A stretch of 32,409 bases of DNA, from positions 1 to 32,409 of the IMG/VR virus record IMGVR_UViG_3300044940_000526. One strand, 5' to 3'. Made by a program: the position numbers and the translations under genes. This DNA comes from a virus. This document shows, in pieces, positions 2-32,409 of this stretch. Position 1 is the stretch's first letter. Each line of letters starts with the position of its first letter. The notes beneath the pieces were generated by a model. It did not search any database. It saw nothing but the letters and a program-made list of their open reading frames with translations, and had not been told where the DNA came from.

Positions 2-1930
2 TCGGGGAAGGCGCCGCCCGGCAAGAAGATGCTCGGGCCTGTCGCCGGCGGCGCGGTGCGGCTCGCGCCGATGCCCGAGGACGGGCGGATCGGCGTGGCG
101 GAGGGGATCGAGACCGCGCTCGCCGCCATGGCCCTGTTCGACGTTCCCGCTATGGCGGCGCTCTCGGCCGACGGGCTGCGGCGCTGGCAGTGGCCGGAGG
201 GAACCCGCCACGTCACCATCTTCGCCGATGCCGGGCATGCCGGGATGCAGGCCGCGGCGACGCTGGCAGATCGGCTGAACGTCGCGGACATCCCCTCGCG
301 CATCGTTGCTCCGCTGCATGGCGACGATTTCAACGACGACCTGCGTCGCGGGGCGACCGCCGCCGACTACGAGCAGGCGGCTGGCGGGGAGCCGAAAGCG
401 CCCGCCACCGCGGCGGCGCCCGCGACGGTGGAAGAGCTGCTCACCGCCGCCTCCGGTCTCACCCGGCCGCCTGACTCCGAGCCTCTCGCCGACCTGCTGG
501 GTCGGCTGGCCCTGGCGCGGCTCGACCCGCTCCCGGAGCGCCAGGTCCTCGCCGCGGTGAAGATCGCCACGGGGATCGCCGTCTCCATCTTGGAGAAGCA
601 GCTGGTGGAGCTGCGCCGGCGCGTGAACGCGACCGGCGACGTTCGCCGCGCGCCTGTCCGGCCGCCCTGGGCATCGCTGCTGCGGATCGACGCCGGCGGC
701 ACGCCTGAGCGGAACGAGGCCAACGTCATCACGGCGCTCTCGCTCGACGCTGCCTTCACCGGCGCGCTGATGTTCGACGAGTTCAGCCAGGAGATCATCG
801 TCGCACGGGCGCTGCCCTGGGATCCTGCAGGCACGGTGCATCCCCGCCCCTGGAGCGAGGCGGACGACGTGCGCTGCGCCGAGTGGCTGCAGCGGCACGA
901 GATCAACGTCCCGCCCGTGGTGGTCGGCCGCAGTGTTGTCGCCGTGTCGCGCAACGTCCGCATCCATCCGGTACGCGACTACCTCGAAGCGCTGGCCTGG
1001 GACGGCACGCCGCGCCTCGACATCTGGGCCGTCACCTACCTCGGCGCCGAGGACACGCCGCTCCACCGGAGCATGGCCGCGCTGTGGATGGTCTCCGCCG
1101 TGGCGCGGATCATGCAGCCCGGCTGCAAGGCCGACCACATGCTGATCCTGGAAGGGCCGCAGGGCATCCGGAAGTCGACCGCCCTGAAGGTGCTGGCCTC
1201 CGAGCCCTGGTTCACCGACGAGCTCGCCGAACTCGGCTCGAAGGACGCGGCGCAGCAGATGCGCGGCATCTGGATCATCGAGATGGCGGAGCTCGACGCC
1301 ATCGGCCAGGCGGACGTGTCGCGCATCAAGGCCTTCTTGAGCCGCACCACCGACCGCTATCGACCGCCCTACGAGCGCTACGTCGTCACCGTGCCGCGGC
1401 AATGCGTCTTCGCCGGCACGGTGAACCCAGACACCTACCTGCGCGACGAGACCGGCAATCGGCGCTTCTGGCCGCTCCGCTGCGGCGACATCGACCTCGA
1501 CGGGCTACGGCGCGATCGCGACCAGCTCTGGGCCGAAGCAGTCGCGCGCTATCGCGCCGGGGCGCCCTGGTGGATCGAGGATCGCGCGCTCGTCGCCGAA
1601 GCGAGTGCGGCGCAGGAGGCGCGCTACCAGGGCGACGCCTGGGACGCGCGGATCGAGCGCTGGCTCGTCTCCGAGCGCAGGCCGGTGAATGTCGGCGTCG
1701 GACACTTCGAGGACTGGCAGGAGCGCTTCGTGCCGAGGGCAAAGCCGCTGACCGACGTCTCGATCGGCGAGGTGCTGGAACAGGCGCTTGGCATCGAGGC
1801 CGCGAAGTGGACGCGCGCCGACCAGATGCGCGTCGGCGCGTTCTTCCGCGCGAGGAAGTGGGCGAAGTACCGGACGAAGACCCCGCCGCGGGAGTGGCGC
1901 TACGTGGCGCCCGGGACGCCAGCGCCATGA
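2..1930 (+). CDS. Toprim/VapE-family primase-helicase, 5'-truncated by window edge
   Basis: Phage DNA replication protein that joins a primase-type Toprim fold to a VapE (virulence-associated E) P-loop ATPase, probably priming and unwinding phage DNA. The reading frame is open to the left edge, and the residues before the first Met (position 29) fit the family, so the true start lies outside the window. Numbering from that Met, the Toprim glutamate lies in VAEGIETA (about 23-30) and an acidic motif in FADAGHAG (about 65-72). A proline/alanine-rich linker follows. The ATPase has Walker A GPQGIRKST (376-384) and the late family signature around RDETGNRRFWP. It sits directly before a repeat-rich non-coding stretch, as a replication protein beside its origin might. 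I am confident of the family; the exact biochemical role is inferred. Confidence 0.88.
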   Translation, partial: SGKAPPGKKMLGPVAGGAVRLAPMPEDGRIGVAEGIETALAAMALFDVPAMAALSADGLRRWQWPEGTRHVTIFADAGHAGMQAAATLADRLNVADIPSRIVAPLHGDDFNDDLRRGATAADYEQAAGGEPKAPATAAAPATVEELLTAASGLTRPPDSEPLADLLGRLALARLDPLPERQVLAAVKIATGIAVSILEKQLVELRRRVNATGDVRRAPVRPPWASLLRIDAGGTPERNEANVITALSLDAAFTGALMFDEFSQEIIVARALPWDPAGTVHPRPWSEADDVRCAEWLQRHEINVPPVVVGRSVVAVSRNVRIHPVRDYLEALAWDGTPRLDIWAVTYLGAEDTPLHRSMAALWMVSAVARIMQPGCKADHMLILEGPQGIRKSTALKVLASEPWFTDELAELGSKDAAQQMRGIWIIEMAELDAIGQADVSRIKAFLSRTTDRYRPPYERYVVTVPRQCVFAGTVNPDTYLRDETGNRRFWPLRCGDIDLDGLRRDRDQLWAEAVARYRAGAPWWIEDRALVAEASAAQEARYQGDAWDARIERWLVSERRPVNVGVGHFEDWQERFVPRAKPLTDVSIGEVLEQALGIEAAKWTRADQMRVGAFFRARKWAKYRTKTPPREWRYVAPGTPAP

Positions 1931-1945
1931 CGCAGCGGCACTCCC

Positions 1946-2231
1946 GTCCAACCTCGTCCAACCTCGTCCAACCTCGGCGCCTGAGGTTGGACGGGCGGAG
2001 ACGCGGGTTTTCTGCGGCATTCCGCGCGCTCGTCCTGTCTCGTCCAACCTGTCCAACCTTCTCCCTTAGAGCCATACGCGAAGCATGTAGGTCCGCCGGA
2101 CATCCATTTTCCTATACGGGTTTAGGGGCGAGGTCGGCAGGTTGGACAGGTTGGACGGCGCAAACCAAACCGCTGATTAAACAGCAGATTTCCTGTCCAA
2201 CCTGGTGTGGCGAGGTTGGACCAGGATGGAC
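1946..2231. repeat. Array of GTCCAACCT repeats in both orientations (candidate origin or operator)
   Basis: The stretch 1931-2379 holds no convincing gene. It contains ten exact copies of the 9-mer GTCCAACCT. Forward copies start at 1946, 1956, 1966, 2042, 2051 and 2195; reverse complements start at 1983, 2139, 2148 and 2213. A one-mismatch reverse copy starts at 2223. The first three are perfect 10-bp tandem units, and the third forms a 10-bp stem with the copy at 1983 (7-nt loop). A tandem forward pair (2042-2059) faces a tandem reverse pair (2139-2156) across a 79-nt, more AT-rich centre. The position between a primase-helicase and a RuvC-like gene suggests an iteron-like replication origin or a multi-site operator. 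The repeats are seen directly; the function is inferred. Confidence 0.85.
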
Positions 2232-2379: not shown

Positions 2380-2928
2380 ATGGCTCCCGTGACTCTCCCC
2401 ATGCCCGCTGTCGGCGCAAGCGGGCCGCCTGTCGTGGCGCCGCTGCCGGTCGCTCTCGCACGTCCCGCTGTCCTCGCTCTCGACCTCGGCACCACCACCG
2501 GCTGGGCACTGCGCAGCCAGGATGGCGGCATCGCCTCCGGCATCATGACCTTCCGACCCGGCCGCTTCGAGGGCGGCGGCATGCGCTACCTGCGCTTCCG
2601 CAGTTGGCTCGGCGAGCTGGCAGCGCTTGCCGGCGGCCTCACGCGCATCGCCTTCGAGGAGGTGCGCTCCCACGCAGGCACGGACGCCGCGCATCTCTAC
2701 GGCGGCTTCCTCGCCCACCTGTCTGCCTGGTGCGAGGAGCGAGGTGTCCCCTACGAGGGCGTTCCGGTCGGCACGATCAAGCGCTTCGCCACTGGCCGCG
2801 GCAACGCCGACAAGGCGGCGATGATCGCGGCAGTGCGCGCTCGCGGCTTCGCACCGGCGGACGACAACGAGGCGGACGCCATCGCCCTGCTGCTCTGGGC
2901 CACCGAGGGCCAAGGAGGCCGGGCATGA
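2380..2928 (+). CDS. RuvC-like Holliday junction resolvase
   Basis: Predicted RNase H-fold endonuclease of 182 residues that would cut branched DNA made during phage replication and recombination before packaging. Catalytic acidic residues fit the RuvC family: D35 in LALDLGTTTGW on the first strand, E93/E94 in IAFEEV, and D166 within the DNEADAIALL helix. A proline/valine-rich leader of about 28 residues precedes the fold. The start at 2380 is preferred because GGAG lies about 6 bases upstream; an in-frame ATG at 2401 is an alternative. Its last bases overlap the next start as ATGA, indicating translational coupling. Phage forms annotated as crossover junction endodeoxyribonuclease share this size and motif order. 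Confidence 0.85.
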   Translation: MAPVTLPMPAVGASGPPVVAPLPVALARPAVLALDLGTTTGWALRSQDGGIASGIMTFRPGRFEGGGMRYLRFRSWLGELAALAGGLTRIAFEEVRSHAGTDAAHLYGGFLAHLSAWCEERGVPYEGVPVGTIKRFATGRGNADKAAMIAAVRARGFAPADDNEADAIALLLWATEGQGGRA

Positions 2929-3152
2929 GGTTGCCCGCCTCGCCGGCACTGCCCCGATGCAGCCTCGACATCGGCCGCAGTCCGACCACCGAGGCCGAGC
3001 TCAACGCCATGCGCGCCGCCGCTTGGCACCGCCACGGCGTCGCCGCCCTGTCGGTGGCGGACATCGCCGACCCCTGGCTGCGCCAGGCGATCACCAACGA
3101 GGCCAACCGCCGCTGGGGACAGCGGCAGGGAGGACATGGTCATGGCGGGTAG
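2925..3152 (+). CDS. Small hypothetical phage protein
   Basis: A 75-residue protein that I do not recognise. Its ATG overlaps the stop of the RuvC-like gene (ATGA), and its 3' end overlaps the start of the DUF6456 gene by 17 bases, so it lies in a tightly coupled early run. The middle is predicted helical (TEAELNAMRAAAWHRHGV, then a SVADIADPWLRQAI segment), with a basic, glycine/histidine-rich tail. No membrane segment or metal motif is obvious. A small DNA-binding or accessory replication factor is possible from context only. It is supported as a gene mainly by the overlapping arrangement, not by recognised homology. Confidence 0.6.
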   Translation: MRLPASPALPRCSLDIGRSPTTEAELNAMRAAAWHRHGVAALSVADIADPWLRQAITNEANRRWGQRQGGHGHGG

Positions 3153-3696
3153 GCGCAAGCAGAGGCGCGGCGGCGCGGCGGGCGAGGATCTGTCCAGGCC
3201 CTCGAAATGGCGGCTGCAGCACGGCGGCTTCTCCGAGCCGATCCGCGAGGCGGACCCGGAGACCGGCACGCCTGTGCTGCACCGCCGCGCGGTGGACACG
3301 CTCGGGCTGATGCTGGCGAAAGGCACCATCACGCACGAGATGCACGAGGCGGCGGAGATCTTCCGCAGGCTGTTCCGCATCGCCTGCTTCGACGGCATGG
3401 CGACGTCGCAGCTGCTTCGCATCCCAGGCGCCGGGAAGGACATGCTCTCGACGCTGCAGCTTGATGCCCGCTGTAGGATCGCGGCGGCGCTGGACGCGCT
3501 CGGGGGGCACGACAGCCCCGGCGGCGCCTGCGCCTGGTTCGTCATCGGCCTGGAGTTCTCGGTGCGGGAATGGGCGATGCGCCAGGGCTGGGCGGGACGC
3601 CGGCTGCATGGCCCGGTGGCGCAGGGCATCCTGGTCGGGGCGCTCGGAACGCTTGCCATGCATTTCGGGCTGACCCCCCGCGCCACGGCGGCGTGA
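3136..3696 (+). CDS. DUF6456 domain-containing protein
   Basis: A 186-residue protein with the C-terminal DUF6456 pattern seen in alphaproteobacteria and their prophages: a glycine-bounded segment, a tryptophan-containing WFVIGLEFSVREWA helix (about 135-148), then a GWAGRRLHGPVAQGILVGALG segment. The N-terminus is short and basic. DUF6456 proteins are often linked to helix-turn-helix regulators, so a role in DNA binding or late-gene control is possible but unproven. Two starts are in frame (ATG 3136 and ATG 3142); an AGGAC sequence lies just upstream of the first. It closes the early run and is followed by about 260 bases without a gene. Confidence 0.75.
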   Translation: MVMAGRRKQRRGGAAGEDLSRPSKWRLQHGGFSEPIREADPETGTPVLHRRAVDTLGLMLAKGTITHEMHEAAEIFRRLFRIACFDGMATSQLLRIPGAGKDMLSTLQLDARCRIAAALDALGGHDSPGGACAWFVIGLEFSVREWAMRQGWAGRRLHGPVAQGILVGALGTLAMHFGLTPRATAA

Positions 3697-3958: not shown

Positions 3959-5446
3959 GTGCAGATGCCTCAGGCCCCCTGGGCTGCGAGCGCCGTCGAG
4001 GCGCGCGCGGTCGCCGCGCTGCTGCCCTATGCCGGGAATGCACGCACGCATTCCGCCGAGCAGGTGGCGCAGATCGCGGCCTCCATCCTCGAGTTCGGCT
4101 TCGTCGCGCCGATCCTTGTGGACGAGCGTGGCGAGATCATCGCCGGCCATGGTCGGCTGCTGGCCGCGAAGTCCCTCGGCCTCGACACTGTGCCGACGAT
4201 CGTCCGCGGCGGCCTGACCGAGGCCCAGAAGGCAGCGTATCGCCTCGCCGACAATCGCATCGCGCTGAATGCCGGCTGGGACGAAGCGCTGCTCGCGGCC
4301 GAGGTTGCGAAGCTGCAGGAGATGGGCGGCGTCGACCTCGCGCTGACCGGCTTCGACGGCGCCGAGATCGAGCGGCTGCTGGCCGGGCTGGAGGCGGTGG
4401 CAACCGAGCCTGGCAACGGCGCGGCTGCCAGCCCGGCGGTTGCCAGCGTTGCCGAGCCGGCCCCTGGCAACCAGCCGGACGCGGATGGCGCCGAGCCGGT
4501 TGCGGATCCCGCGGATGCCGAACCGGAGCCGCCACGCCAGGCCGTCGCGCGGGTCGGCGACATCTGGTTGCTGGGCGAGCACCGCCTCGCCTGCGGCGAC
4601 AGCACGAACCGCTCCACCGTGGCTCGCGTCATGGCCGCGGACCGGGCAGCGCTGCTTTTCACCAGCCCGCCCTACGGCAATCAGCGCGCCTACACCACCG
4701 GCGGCGTCTCCGATTGGGACGCGCTGATGCAGGGCGTGTTCCAGCATCTCGACGGTGCGCTGCGGCCGGACGGCCAGGTGCTTGTCAACCTCGGCCTGAT
4801 CCACCGCGACGGGGAATGGCTGCCCTACTGGCAGGGCTGGCTCGACTGGATGCGGGCGCAGGGCTGGCGGCGCTTCGGGCTCTACGCCTGGGACCAGGGG
4901 CCCGGCCTGCCGGGCGACTGGAACGGGCGCCTCGCGCCGGCCTTCGAGCTGGTCTTCCACTTCAATCGCGAGGCGCGGCCCCCGAACAAGATCGTGCCCT
5001 GCAAATGGGCCGGCACCCCGAACAAGGGCAGCGGGCTGCGCGCAGCCGATGGCGAGGTGAAGGCCTATACCCACATCGGCCTGCCGGTGCAGGAGATGCG
5101 GATCCCGGACAGCGTGCTGCGCATCACCCGCCACAAGGGACGGGGCATCGAGACCGAGCACCCGGCGGTGTTCCCCGTCGCGCTGCCGGAGTTCCTGATG
5201 CGCGCCTACACGGAGGAGGGCGACGTCGTGTTCGAGCCGTTCGGCGGCTCCGGCACCACGATTCTGGCCGGCCAGCGCATCGGGAGGCGCGTCCGCGCCA
5301 TCGAACTCGCACCGGCCTATGTCGACCTCGCCATCGCCCGCTGGCGCATGCTGCACCCCGACCTGCCGGTGACGCTGGCGGAGGACGGCCGGGACTACGA
5401 CACCGTCGCCGCCGCGCGCGCCGAGGAGCCCGCCCGTGCCGCCTGA
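3959..5446 (+). CDS. ParB-domain DNA methyltransferase (SPPY type)
   Basis: Fusion of an N-terminal ParB/Srx-like domain (about 15-115, with HSAEQVAQIAASILEFGF and the IIAGHGRLLAAK motif) to a permuted class-beta amino-methyltransferase. The catalytic motif TSPPYG is at 235-240; an SPPY motif favours, but does not prove, N4-cytosine methylation. The AdoMet-binding motif EPFGGSGTT is at 426-434, near the C-terminus. A proline/alanine-rich linker of about 45 residues joins the halves. Such proteins methylate phage DNA, probably shielding it from host restriction. The start is GTG 3959; ATG 3965 is equally plausible. It overlaps the next methyltransferase by 11 bases. Confidence 0.88.
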   Translation: MQMPQAPWAASAVEARAVAALLPYAGNARTHSAEQVAQIAASILEFGFVAPILVDERGEIIAGHGRLLAAKSLGLDTVPTIVRGGLTEAQKAAYRLADNRIALNAGWDEALLAAEVAKLQEMGGVDLALTGFDGAEIERLLAGLEAVATEPGNGAAASPAVASVAEPAPGNQPDADGAEPVADPADAEPEPPRQAVARVGDIWLLGEHRLACGDSTNRSTVARVMAADRAALLFTSPPYGNQRAYTTGGVSDWDALMQGVFQHLDGALRPDGQVLVNLGLIHRDGEWLPYWQGWLDWMRAQGWRRFGLYAWDQGPGLPGDWNGRLAPAFELVFHFNREARPPNKIVPCKWAGTPNKGSGLRAADGEVKAYTHIGLPVQEMRIPDSVLRITRHKGRGIETEHPAVFPVALPEFLMRAYTEEGDVVFEPFGGSGTTILAGQRIGRRVRAIELAPAYVDLAIARWRMLHPDLPVTLAEDGRDYDTVAAARAEEPARAA

Positions 5447-6704
5447 CCTCCGCGTCGAGACGCTGCCGCTGGCCTCGCTCGTGCCCTACGCCGCGAACGC
5501 CCGGCAGCACCCGCCCGAGCAGGTGGCGCAGCTCGCCGCCTCGATCGGCGAGTTCGGCTTCACCGTGCCGGTGCTGGTGGACGATGCCGGCGTGCTGATC
5601 GCCGGCCACGGCCGCGTCCTCGCCGCCAAGGCGCTCGGCATGGAGGCGGTCCCCGCCATCCGCCTGTCGCACCTGACCGAGGCGCAGGCGCGGGCCTATC
5701 GGCTGGCCGACAACCAGCTCGCGCTGAACTCCACCTGGGAGGAGAGCCTGCTCGCCGCCGAGCTCCGCGCGCTGCGCAGCGACGAGTTCGACCTCGGAAT
5801 GATCGGCTTCGACGCCGGCACGCTGGACCGGCTCCTGGCCGAGGCGGTGCCCGAGGTGGCCGCGCGGGGCGGCGGCGATCCCGACGCCCCGGCGCCTCCG
5901 CCGCCCGAGGCGCCCGTCACCCGCGCCGGCGACCTCTGGCTGCTCGGCCCGCACAGGCTGCTCTGCGGCGACGCCACCTCCGCTGCGGACGTCGCGCGGC
6001 TGCTCGACGGCGCGCGGCCGCACCTGATGATCACGGACCCGCCCTATGGCGTGAACTACGATCCCGAGTGGCGGAACGAGGCGGGCGTCTCGGCGACGAT
6101 GCGCACCGGCAAGGTGGCGAATGACGACCGCGCCGACTGGCGCGCGGCCTGGGCGCTGTTTCCCGGCGACGTCGCCTATGTCTGGCACGCGGGCATCCAC
6201 GCGCGCACCGTGATCGAGAGCCTGGAGGCGGCCGGCTTCGCGGTGCGCAGCCAGATCGTCTGGGCCAAGCCGCGCTTCGTGCTGGGGCGAGGCGACTACC
6301 ACTGGCAGCACGAGCCCTGCCTCTACGCCGTTCGCAAGGGGGCGACCGGCCACTGGCAGGGCGCGCGCGACCAGGCGACGCTCTGGCCGATCAGCACCGG
6401 CGGCGACGAGGACGCGGCGACGGTGCACGGCACCCAGAAGCCGGTGGAGTGCATGCGCCGGCCGATCGTCAACAACAGCGCGCCGGGGGAGGCGGTCTAC
6501 GAGCCCTTCTGCGGCAGCGGCAGCACGATCATCGCCGCCGAGACGACGGGGGGCGTCTGCTACGCGATGGACAGCGACCCGCGCTACGTGGACGTCGCGG
6601 TACGGCGCTGGCAGGCGTTCACCGGACGCGCTGCCGTGCTGGCCGGGGAGGAGACGGTCTTCGACGACGTCGCCGCCGCCCGCAGCACGCAGGCGGCGGC
6701 GTGA
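5436..6704 (+). CDS. ParB-domain DNA methyltransferase (DPPY type)
   Basis: A second ParB-methyltransferase fusion of 422 residues, paralogous to its upstream neighbour. The ParB-like domain covers about 5-105 (HPPEQVAQLAASIGEFGF, LIAGHGRVLAAK). The catalytic motif is DPPYG at 201-205, usual for N6-adenine enzymes, and the AdoMet motif EPFCGSGST is at 356-364. The short linker is almost pure proline/alanine. The start is GTG at 5436, inside the end of the previous gene, with GAGGAG about 7 bases upstream, so translation is coupled. The different catalytic motif suggests the two enzymes modify different bases or sites. DNA protection against restriction is the likely role. Confidence 0.9.
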   Translation: MPPDLRVETLPLASLVPYAANARQHPPEQVAQLAASIGEFGFTVPVLVDDAGVLIAGHGRVLAAKALGMEAVPAIRLSHLTEAQARAYRLADNQLALNSTWEESLLAAELRALRSDEFDLGMIGFDAGTLDRLLAEAVPEVAARGGGDPDAPAPPPPEAPVTRAGDLWLLGPHRLLCGDATSAADVARLLDGARPHLMITDPPYGVNYDPEWRNEAGVSATMRTGKVANDDRADWRAAWALFPGDVAYVWHAGIHARTVIESLEAAGFAVRSQIVWAKPRFVLGRGDYHWQHEPCLYAVRKGATGHWQGARDQATLWPISTGGDEDAATVHGTQKPVECMRRPIVNNSAPGEAVYEPFCGSGSTIIAAETTGGVCYAMDSDPRYVDVAVRRWQAFTGRAAVLAGEETVFDDVAAARSTQAAA

Positions 6705-29633: not shown

Positions 29634-31463
29634 ATGCCCGCACGCATCGACGACCTGCTTGTCCTCAACACGGCCGTCAACAAGAACGACCTCGCCAAGT
29701 ATCTGCGCGACCGCGAGGCGGTCCTTCCCAACGACTTCGGCGGCCTCGGCGATGGCGTGGCCGACGATCGGACGGCCATCCAGGCTTGCTTCGACCGCGC
29801 GGGGACGGATCAGAAGTTCGCGGTCATCCCGCCCGGCACCTGGAACGTGTCCGGCACCGTCACCCTGCCGGGCGCCGCCCGCGGCCTGATCATGCAGGGC
29901 GCCATCCGCTACACCGGCTCGGCGCCCACCTCGGTCCTGGTCCTCGGGGACGGCGGCACCACGCGCAACGGCGAGAAGCTCTACACGGGCCTGAACGTCA
30001 TCCGCGCCACGCAGTCCGACTGGTCCTCCGAGGCCGATATCGGCATCACCGTGCGGAACGTCGATGCGAGCCAGATCGAGCTGCGGCGGGTGGAAGGCTT
30101 CACCATCGGCATGCGCACGCTGGGCGACGGCCGCGGGGTGGAGGACAGCACCTTCATGCTGGGGCGCATCGTCAACTGCCGCATCGGCCTCGACATATGG
30201 TGCGCGACCGCGACGGCCTGGAATACCTCGGTCCGCTACTACGGCGGGCACTTCGCCTGCGCGACCGGGGTGAACGCCGCCCAGGACCGCTACGGCATCC
30301 GACTGGGCAACGAGCCGGGCGCCTACACCAACCACAACCGGCACGTCTTCGACGCGCCGAACTTCGAGCTCCGTCAGGCGGGGTCCAACCTCGCCATCCC
30401 TTTCCTCAACCAGACCTCAGGCTCCGCCATCATCGCGCGGAACATGCGCATGGAGGCCTGCTCGCCCATCGCCGCCCGCCACACAGCCGGCGCCCAGGAT
30501 TGCGAGTACGACGTGGCCTGGACCAACACATACCTGGTCGGCATCGACTACACCCCGACCGCCAACCGCTGCGGCAACGCCGTCATCAACCGCCACCGCG
30601 CGCCGGCCTCGCGCTTCACCCGCTACCTGGCCGGGGTGGAGAACGTCCGCGCCAAGGCCTTCCGGCACTCGGCCACCGAGATCGGCGTCGAGGGGCTGTG
30701 CACCATCGCCACCTCCACCACCGCGGCCACCCTTATCGCGGACTTCTGCTTCAACGGGCTGACCGGCCTGACGCCGACCGCGCGCGGCGTGCAGCTCGCC
30801 GCCAACCGCGGCCTCGGCTGGGTCCTGGACGTCACCCAGGCGAAGGAGTTCGCCCTCGCCCATTGGCTCGTCTCCGGCGCCGCCGGCGGGCGGCTCTTTG
30901 CCCGCTGCTTCGACGCCGCGGGCCAGATCCGCGAGAACCTGCCGGGCGACCTGCTCGCCTCGCTCACCACGATGCTGTGGAACGCGCCCGCCAAGGGCTG
31001 GAACGCCGGCGCGCCGATGGACGACGCCAACCTCAACCGGCGCATGACGCTGCGCTTTGGCCCCGGCGTGGCCTTCGCGCAGATCGGCATCATCGGCTTC
31101 GACGGGGTGATCGAGCTCGAGGCGCTGCGCCTCTTCGGGCTGCCGGAAACCGCCCCGACCATCCTGAACGGCACGCCGACGATGCCGAACTCCGGACAAC
31201 GGAGCTTCGTCGCGGAGGTGGAGGTGGACCTGCCGAGCCTCGCGCCCGGGGCCGAGCACCTGTTCGACGTGACGCTGCCCGGCGCGCGGCCGGGGGATCT
31301 GTGCAGCGCCGCGCTCGCCACATCGAGCCGCTTCGTGCAGGTGGCAGGGCATGTATGGACCAACAACACCGTCCGCGTCGTCGCGCGCAACGTCACTGGC
31401 TTCAGCGTGGATCTGCCCTCCGCGACGCTGATGGTGGAGGCGAGGAAAAGGACGGTGCCGTAA
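29634..31463 (+). CDS. Tail fibre / tailspike with pectate-lyase-type beta helix
   Basis: A 609-residue receptor-binding protein. The N-terminal motif NDFGGLGDGVADDRTAIQACFDRAG (about 34-58) is the entry of the pectate-lyase superfamily beta-helix found in tailspikes. The middle (about 60-400) has repeated short beta strands with Asn/Gly turns, and the C-terminus (about 530-600) is a beta domain (FVAEVEVDLPSLAPGAEHLFDVTLPGARPGD) likely forming the trimer cap. It may bind or cut surface polysaccharide; catalytic residues cannot be assigned. The gene ends two bases from the convergent acetyltransferase gene and seems to be the last structural gene. Confidence 0.8.
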   Translation: MPARIDDLLVLNTAVNKNDLAKYLRDREAVLPNDFGGLGDGVADDRTAIQACFDRAGTDQKFAVIPPGTWNVSGTVTLPGAARGLIMQGAIRYTGSAPTSVLVLGDGGTTRNGEKLYTGLNVIRATQSDWSSEADIGITVRNVDASQIELRRVEGFTIGMRTLGDGRGVEDSTFMLGRIVNCRIGLDIWCATATAWNTSVRYYGGHFACATGVNAAQDRYGIRLGNEPGAYTNHNRHVFDAPNFELRQAGSNLAIPFLNQTSGSAIIARNMRMEACSPIAARHTAGAQDCEYDVAWTNTYLVGIDYTPTANRCGNAVINRHRAPASRFTRYLAGVENVRAKAFRHSATEIGVEGLCTIATSTTAATLIADFCFNGLTGLTPTARGVQLAANRGLGWVLDVTQAKEFALAHWLVSGAAGGRLFARCFDAAGQIRENLPGDLLASLTTMLWNAPAKGWNAGAPMDDANLNRRMTLRFGPGVAFAQIGIIGFDGVIELEALRLFGLPETAPTILNGTPTMPNSGQRSFVAEVEVDLPSLAPGAEHLFDVTLPGARPGDLCSAALATSSRFVQVAGHVWTNNTVRVVARNVTGFSVDLPSATLMVEARKRTVP

Positions 31464-31465
31464 TG

Positions 31466-32257
31466 TCACTCTGACCGCGCGCCACCCGCAGCGAGGGGGT
31501 CGCGACCGACCTGCCATCGGCGAACCGTCACGGAGAACCCGGCCGCCCGGTAGGCGCGGCAGGCGGCGCCGTTCTCCTCCGTCGTGGTGAGCAAAAGCCG
31601 CGCAACGCCTGACCGCGCAAAGTGCCAGCGCAGATGGAGCGCGAGGCGGCGGGCGAGGCCGCGCCCGCGCGCCTCAGGCACCGTCAGAAAATGGCCGATC
31701 AGCGCCGTCTCGCCCGCGACACCGATCGTGCCGGCCATCGCCACGATGCGACCACCCTCGCGGATGGCGGCGAGGGGAAGGTCCGCCATGCGGGCCGACA
31801 GCACCGTGTCGGGGTTGTGCTGAGCCATCGTCGCGGCGGCCTCGGCGAACCCCGCCCGGCCCAGCATCCGCGCATCGGGATCGGGAGCCGCGCCGCCGGT
31901 CGTCGCTGCCATCGCGAGCATTGACTGCGGTGGTCCGAGCGCATCGCCGGCGAGCGCCAAGACCTGCGCGTGATGCGCTATCGTCAGGTGCAACTCCAAC
32001 CGGCCGGGCCATTCGAGCAGCCCCCGCAGATCCTCCTCGTGCAGATCGCCGACGGTGCTGAACACCGCAATCCCGTCGAAGCGCGCCCCGAGCGCTGCCC
32101 CGCGCCGCGCGTGCCCGATCCGCACGAGGGACACGTCCTCGCCCCGCGCCGAATCGGCCTCGGCGAGCGCCAAGTAGAAGGACAGCATGGCGTCGCCCGC
32201 GACAAGGTGCCGCAGCAGCTCGAGGTCGCCGGCGGGGAGCCTGGAGAGCGGTACCAT
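31466..32257 (-). CDS. GNAT family N-acetyltransferase
   Basis: A 263-residue protein with a C-terminal GNAT domain: GGRIVAMAGTIGVAGETALIGHFLTVPEARGRGLARRLALHL (acetyl-CoA pyrophosphate loop RGRGLA) and LLLTTTEENGAACRAYRAAGFSV as the final strand and helix. The N-terminal half is a less conserved domain often seen in two-domain GNATs. The substrate is unknown. The Met at 32257 (VPLSRLPAGDLELL) is preferred because longer starts run into the promoter region of the divergent gene at 32345. It lies antisense to the tail fibre gene, two bases from its stop, and could be a host gene at the prophage edge or a phage cargo gene. Confidence 0.8.
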   Translation of the reverse strand: MVPLSRLPAGDLELLRHLVAGDAMLSFYLALAEADSARGEDVSLVRIGHARRGAALGARFDGIAVFSTVGDLHEEDLRGLLEWPGRLELHLTIAHHAQVLALAGDALGPPQSMLAMAATTGGAAPDPDARMLGRAGFAEAAATMAQHNPDTVLSARMADLPLAAIREGGRIVAMAGTIGVAGETALIGHFLTVPEARGRGLARRLALHLRWHFARSGVARLLLTTTEENGAACRAYRAAGFSVTVRRWQVGRDPLAAGGARSE

Positions 32258-32344
32258 CCTCGTTAGCTGCCATGTGGCACCGCCCCGCGTCTTGAACGAA
32301 ACCGGCCATTGACCCGCGCCACCGGCTCTCGGGATGGTCCCGGC

Positions 32345-32409
32345 ATGACGGCCCATCCGCCCCTCCGCATCCTGCCGCTGCCGGATCTCGGCGGCATCGA
32401 GGTCGCGCG
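32345..32409 (+). CDS. Start of an unidentified gene, cut by the window edge
   Basis: Only about 21 residues are visible, from an ATG in an open frame that reaches the last base: TAHPPLRILPLPDLGGIEVA. The LRILPLPDLG-type start recalls coenzyme F420-0:glutamate ligase (CofE), but so short a piece is not enough to name it. It diverges from the acetyltransferase gene across about 87 bases. It would help define the prophage border. Confidence 0.35.
   Translation, partial: MTAHPPLRILPLPDLGGIEVA

Follow-up and report, generated by a model that had tools for sequence, protein, structure and literature searches.

In SaPIs, the C-terminal domain of Rep recognises an iteron origin directly 3' of its own gene; SCCmec Cch2 likewise uses its C-terminal domain to bind repeats located 3' of cch2 (PMC7581432). 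PICI origins consist of an AT-rich region between two iteron sets, 3' of rep, a layout stated to be known in no other bacterial replicon (PMC6092414). SaPI origins have been described as loading two head-to-head hexameric helicases (PMC9894130). The satellite P4 alpha protein is a primase-helicase which initiates at its own repeats, ori and crr (mentioned in PMC6092414).

A dense array of short repeats lies next to a vapE gene in a stretch of viral DNA of 32,409 nucleotides (the window; positions 1 to 32,409 of IMG/VR virus record IMGVR_UViG_3300044940_000526). From comparison of related loci and the analogy with the systems above, this array is very probably a replication origin of the SaPI/PICI type, carried by an alphaproteobacterial tailed phage and putatively bound by the phage's own VapE initiator-helicase. 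An earlier note on the window had suggested an origin used by the VapE/Toprim protein, and comparative evidence (the layout, the association with vapE and a repeat word which tracks VapE) strongly supports this suggestion. P4 alpha differs from VapE in both protein family and origin layout. Cch2 is alike as a self-loading helicase, and its C-terminal domain, when isolated, binds direct repeats downstream of the gene (PMC7581432). However, it belongs to the D5/Primase_C-term helicase family and has AAGTG iterons, three only. A search of the literature (open-licence papers) found no earlier account of such origins in phages.

The repeat array and its neighbours

The vapE gene (29..1930, + strand) encodes a Toprim_3 domain, a VapE helicase domain and a C-terminal winged helix in 633 aa counted from the first ATG. 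Its open frame continues past the left end, leaving the N-terminus outside the window; relatives have approximately 850-960 aa. Pfam matches were to VapE-like_dom (PF05272; 4.9e-85, 284.8 bits with a cut-off of 25) and Toprim_3 (5.2e-24), while the PHROG match was DNA helicase. The P-loop helicase domain of the VapE/PriRep1 family is seen both in the PF05272 match and in a match to 7pds (profile E 8.4e-84), in which PriRep1, labelled 'Similar to D. nodosus vapE', was solved with dsDNA; we take 7pds to be the structure from Qiao et al. 2022. The helicase regions are homologous and model and structure align over about 460 columns, but at only about 25% identity.

The array sits between the vapE stop codon (1930) and a gene for a RuvC-like Holliday-junction resolvase, the next gene of the replication module (2380..2928, + strand, start codon approximate; phrog_159, E 2.4e-28). 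In 108 of 115 loci, the array likewise separates vapE from ruvC. The array itself (1946-2231) contains ten exact 9-bp copies of GTCCAACCT, in both orientations and within 286 bp, as the earlier note had counted them (1946-2221), and one near copy in addition. Exact copies lie at 1946, 1956, 1966, 2042, 2051 and 2195 on the + strand and at 1984, 2139, 2148 and 2213 on the - strand; the near copy, GTCCATCCT, has one mismatch and is on the - strand at 2223-2231. Elsewhere in the window there is a single stray exact copy, at 30383.

The left outer set is formed by three direct iterons with a 10-bp period (1946..1974, + strand), the perfect 3x10-bp tandem already reported (1946/1956/1966) being real, and by one inverted iteron (1984..1992, - strand). 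A left inner pair with a 9-bp period (2042..2059, + strand) and its mirror, the right inner pair (2139..2156, - strand), enclose a core of 79 bases (2060..2138), which is a candidate melting region. To the right are an outer iteron (2195..2203, + strand) and two outer inverted iterons, the second with one mismatch (2213..2231, - strand). The symmetry noticed earlier, of two forward and two reverse copies around a 79-nt centre, takes the form of a perfect 19-nt inverted repeat (2041-2059 / 2139-2157) with 79 nt separating its arms. The centre had also been described as richer in A/T; its A+T content is 43%, against 28% for the window, so that the A/T-richness of the core is modest. The core has CATTTTCCTATA-GGGTTTAG type sequence, which a pattern search over loci found to be kept in close relatives, in some of them with single-base changes.

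Such a density of repeats is beyond chance, as had been claimed. With up to one mismatch allowed, the whole window had 12 matches to GTCCAACCT; 100 dinucleotide shuffles averaged 2.98 and never reached 12. The densest cluster of any 9-mer per 290 bases had 10 copies in the window and a maximum of 4 in 200 first-order simulated windows.

The array has the same plan as SaPI origins and is best read as an origin of the phage that would load two VapE rings. By analogy with SaPI Rep and SCCmec Cch2, we infer that the C-terminal winged helix of Toprim-VapE binds the GTCCAACCT words. Since the words are arranged in two mirror-image sets on either side of a core of about 80 bases, two VapE helicase rings may assemble head to head; the rings would then melt the A/T-richer core, from which replication would start in both directions. 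As in SaPIs and PICIs, the candidate origin is 3' of the initiator-helicase gene (its first iteron follows the stop codon of vapE by 16 bases) and has an A/T-richer centre between two sets of short iterons. The counterpart of their origin-binding domain would be the C-terminal domain of VapE, a predicted winged helix with residues that covary with the word. In contrast to SaPIs and PICIs, VapE here has an N-terminal Toprim domain and the array can be up to 6.4 kb from vapE in relatives.

A further difference is the carrier. Genes for the terminase large subunit, portal, head and tail are present in the window, and the element is thus a tailed phage or prophage with structural genes of its own, not a satellite lacking a full set of them, as PICIs are. 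At the right end of the window, a gene for a GNAT-family acetyltransferase (31466-32356, - strand) is read from the strand opposite to the phage genes. Phages carry repeated terminase sites, and the array might in principle be a packaging (pac/cos-like) or recombination site. This is extremely improbable, given that 7.7 kb separate the array from the gene for the terminase large subunit, that the helicase gene is its neighbour and that its word follows VapE (see below), in covariation scans which covered VapE and RuvC.

Conserved layout and changing word in related loci

Viral and genome contigs were gathered by similarity to VapE, together with loci picked by GTCCAACCT itself; starting from the distant VapE of L094, a search yielded no more than 4 loci. 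Relatives swap the word coherently in most copies, for GTCCTACCT, GTCCCACCT, GTCCCAACC, GTCACCACC or GTCACCAACC, and keep the layout. The arrangement shared by these loci runs outer (+ + -), inner (+ + [+]), core, inner ([-] - -), outer (+ - -). Central spacing fits in 148 of the 158 unique loci with a named word, and the SaPI/PICI-type layout of two iteron sets around an A/T-richer centre, seen in the window as mirror sets with a 79-b centre, recurs as a forward-reverse (+ -) central pair in 145 of these 148. Their cores have a median length of 82 b (quartiles 79-87), with an A/T content above that of their own locus in 140 of 148 cases.

The check proposed in the earlier note was to look for GTCCAACCT clusters 3' of vapE in relatives, with their absence counting against the array. 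The layout was indeed kept there, but the word was replaced in most copies, and for that reason absence of GTCCAACCT would have misfired as a refutation. Literal GTCCAACCT was accordingly rejected as a mark of the family, its sequence changing among relatives. In L100, L101 and L102, where VapE is 94-95% identical to that of the window, GTCCAACCT has become GTCCTACCT at most copies and one inverted copy is unchanged. A literature search with the motif GTCCAACC gave unrelated matches only, among the matches listed.

Association of arrays with vapE extends well beyond the close relatives. For 90 of 172 distinct close VapE proteins and for 28 of 53 distant ones, a single 7-mer occurred six or more times, on both strands, no more than 700 b 3' of the vapE stop codon; in each of two control stretches inside the vapE gene, this was so in 0-1 loci. 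About half of the vapE loci have no array within 700 b, and in many the array is kilobases off. Among named phages, there are repeat clusters 3' of vapE in APSE-1 (GTAACAACC) and Marinobacter phage PS3 (GGTCACCCC), and also downstream of vapE in Staphylococcus phage 2638A and Pseudomonas phage LPPA36. In 7-mer counts, Strep phage Javan100 and Acidovorax phage Aval showed no clear array. For L326, whose VapE has RVGAWLKSRDWEKYR, no array was found within about 10 kb downstream of vapE, nor was one found near vapE in L501 and L253, with VapE of the same type. Defective copies of vapE were seen in L429, with an internal stop, and in L364, with a truncated frame.

The distance between array and vapE bears on whether the array might instead be a multi-site operator, at which VapE or another phage regulator would bind, mainly controlling transcription of vapE or of downstream genes. 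Autoregulation by initiators is common, and clustered intergenic sites are compatible with a regulator. However, relatives keep the layout at distances to vapE that range between about 20 b and 6.4 kb, a dyad around a melting-type core would be unneeded in an operator and there is no sigma-70-like promoter in the array region, as judged by a search which covers GC-rich alphaproteobacterial promoters poorly. An operator is therefore improbable.

A second repeat array, with the word GTTTCCACC or GTTACCA and a different spacing, is present in L282 (8850-9020), L201, L332, L199/L164 and L163/L202. It lies about 2.5 kb 3' of vapE in L201 and L332, and approximately 1.7-2 kb beyond the VapE-type array where both occur.

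VapE residues that track the word

The C-terminal region of VapE (aa 538-633; 1640..1927, + strand) is a predicted winged-helix DNA-binding domain. Its AlphaFold2 model has a mean pLDDT of 94 and the order of elements of a winged helix. Fold matches of the domain on its own include winged helices and PriRep1, at modest scores; the one to PriRep1 is weak (Z 5.8) and level with other winged helices. In the model, residue 603 (Gly; codon 1835..1837, + strand) is in helix 596-608, the predicted recognition helix, and residues 613 (Lys; 1865..1867, + strand) and 615 (Arg; 1871..1873, + strand) are on the following strand, 612-615, the predicted wing strand. The recognition helix and wing strand are the usual reading surfaces of winged-helix domains.

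These three residues track the word. Among the 211 unique VapE proteins compared, residue 615 ends the motif RVxxxxKxxxWxRYx and residue 603 follows RV. Every locus with a GTCACC word (29 of 29) has Q at residue 615, and where the word is of the GTCC class this residue is R or K in 116 of 117 loci, the exception being a G in the distant L038. At residue 603, ..CAC-type words go with G and ..CAA-type words with S, T or A; the 2 exceptions among 146 (L038 and L388) are doubtful, since both come from distant proteins in which the motif could not be aligned with confidence. All four combinations of residues 603 and 615 occur, each with its own word. At residue 613, R goes with GTCCCAC and K with GTCC(A/T)AC. 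The words differ by one base in length, and left and right alignments of them are both possible.

Column scans picked out the same positions. Residue 615 was top of 545 columns for the GTCACC class (100% of entropy; next column 60%), residue 603 was top of 545 for the CAA class (91%; next column 59%) and residue 613 was top of 511 for the remaining class (62%). The three residues give no explanation of the fifth base, which is A in the window and T in L100. From these comparisons the origin word appears to be largely predictable from the VapE protein. Whether VapE initiators read their origins via a compact, combinable residue-to-base code, made up of one recognition-helix and two wing-strand residues, is on this evidence an evenly balanced question.

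Two further groups of VapE proteins have arrays of their own. L010 and L289/L492 have distantly related VapE with RVA and EK.R-type motifs, and both have TGCCCAACCT-type arrays; this looks like convergence on the same residue-word rule. In L454-L456 and L485-L487, with VapE at 50-54% identity, 10-12 copies of GGTCCGG type are directly 3' of the gene, a class outside the rule that was tested.

That the word follows VapE also bears on other proteins of the early region. A DUF6456-like protein (3136-3696), which the earlier note had offered as a possible binder, has a Pfam score of 20.1 against a gathering threshold of 26.3 bits, so its name is uncertain. At 5436-6704, the window encodes a ParB-like N-terminal domain fused to a DNA methyltransferase (phrog_498). 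Both genes are in the same early region as the array and ParB-like proteins bind clustered sites, so that one of these proteins might bind the array as an operator or partition site. It is, however, very unlikely that either does so. Among the 134 array loci with 2.5 kb or more of downstream sequence, a DUF6456 relative was found in 35 and not found in 99, so that such a protein is not regularly encoded with the array, and of 418 fetched loci 97 had a ParB/methyltransferase relative within the fetched flank. Furthermore, VapE columns fully explain the word. Hairpin extrusion, another earlier suggestion, need not be invoked, since the repeats are maintained as protein-site words and vary in sequence with VapE.

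Kinship between loci could produce covariation, and the associations were counted over independent pairs on a tree of VapE minus its C-terminal domain (121 rows, quick method, some long branches). All 11 of 11 such pairs bear out the association of residue 615 with the word (p 0.00098), and 18-19 of 19 that of residue 603 (p ~4e-6 to 8e-6). The VapE body nearest to that of the window, from L285, is 98% identical over the compared columns, yet its helix and its word both differ. The C-terminal domain and array thus change together, and linkage is a real confounder of the covariation. The C-terminal domain and the adjacent array could be exchanged jointly by recombination, in which case some of the covariation would come from linkage. 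Three results weaken this explanation. Remote arrays, at over 700 b from vapE, follow the rule too, with zero exceptions among GTC words. On the same 81 loci, the best column of the adjacent RuvC protein accounts for no more than 60% and 28% of the word classes, against 100% and 100% for VapE. Finally, residues 603 and 615 act on different parts of the word.

The rule and its expected words were fixed in writing before the DNA of unseen arrays was fetched. Among 12 predictions for which arrays were found, 9 matched and 3 were partly right; several of the predicted loci are close relatives of each other and of the training rows, which makes this a check and not a fully independent sample. GTCCCAA was correctly predicted for L440, L441, L442, L457, L297 and L298, with arrays up to 6.4 kb from vapE. 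Predictions also matched for L491 and L277, with GTCACCAA, and for L262, with few copies of GTCACCAC. Those for L268, with GTTCCCAAC, and for L316 and L334, with GTCCCCAA, were partly right; L326 had no array within 10 kb, and the contig of L295 ended too early for its prediction. The rule also fits L312 and L327, which had not been named beforehand, and four new proteins (L472, L478, L479 and L481) seen before the prediction was written.

Implications for VapE elements

In phage and satellite annotation VapE widely bears a 'virulence-associated' label, and its mechanism was unknown in studies of streptococcal virulence (PMC6813308). The present comparison speaks for a role of phage VapE as an initiator-helicase that binds the origin. 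Systems of this kind are known from SaPIs and PICIs, and their origin layout is here extended to tailed phages; what is new is its presence in Toprim-VapE tailed phages, an array that is mobile along the genome, and the putative residue-word code.

Such a code would let origins be located, and their compatibility predicted, from sequence. If it is true, origin words would be predictable from the protein alone across many VapE elements, as would which phages and satellites can or cannot share an origin. A new origin specificity would then arise through one or two residue changes together with concerted replacement of the iterons.
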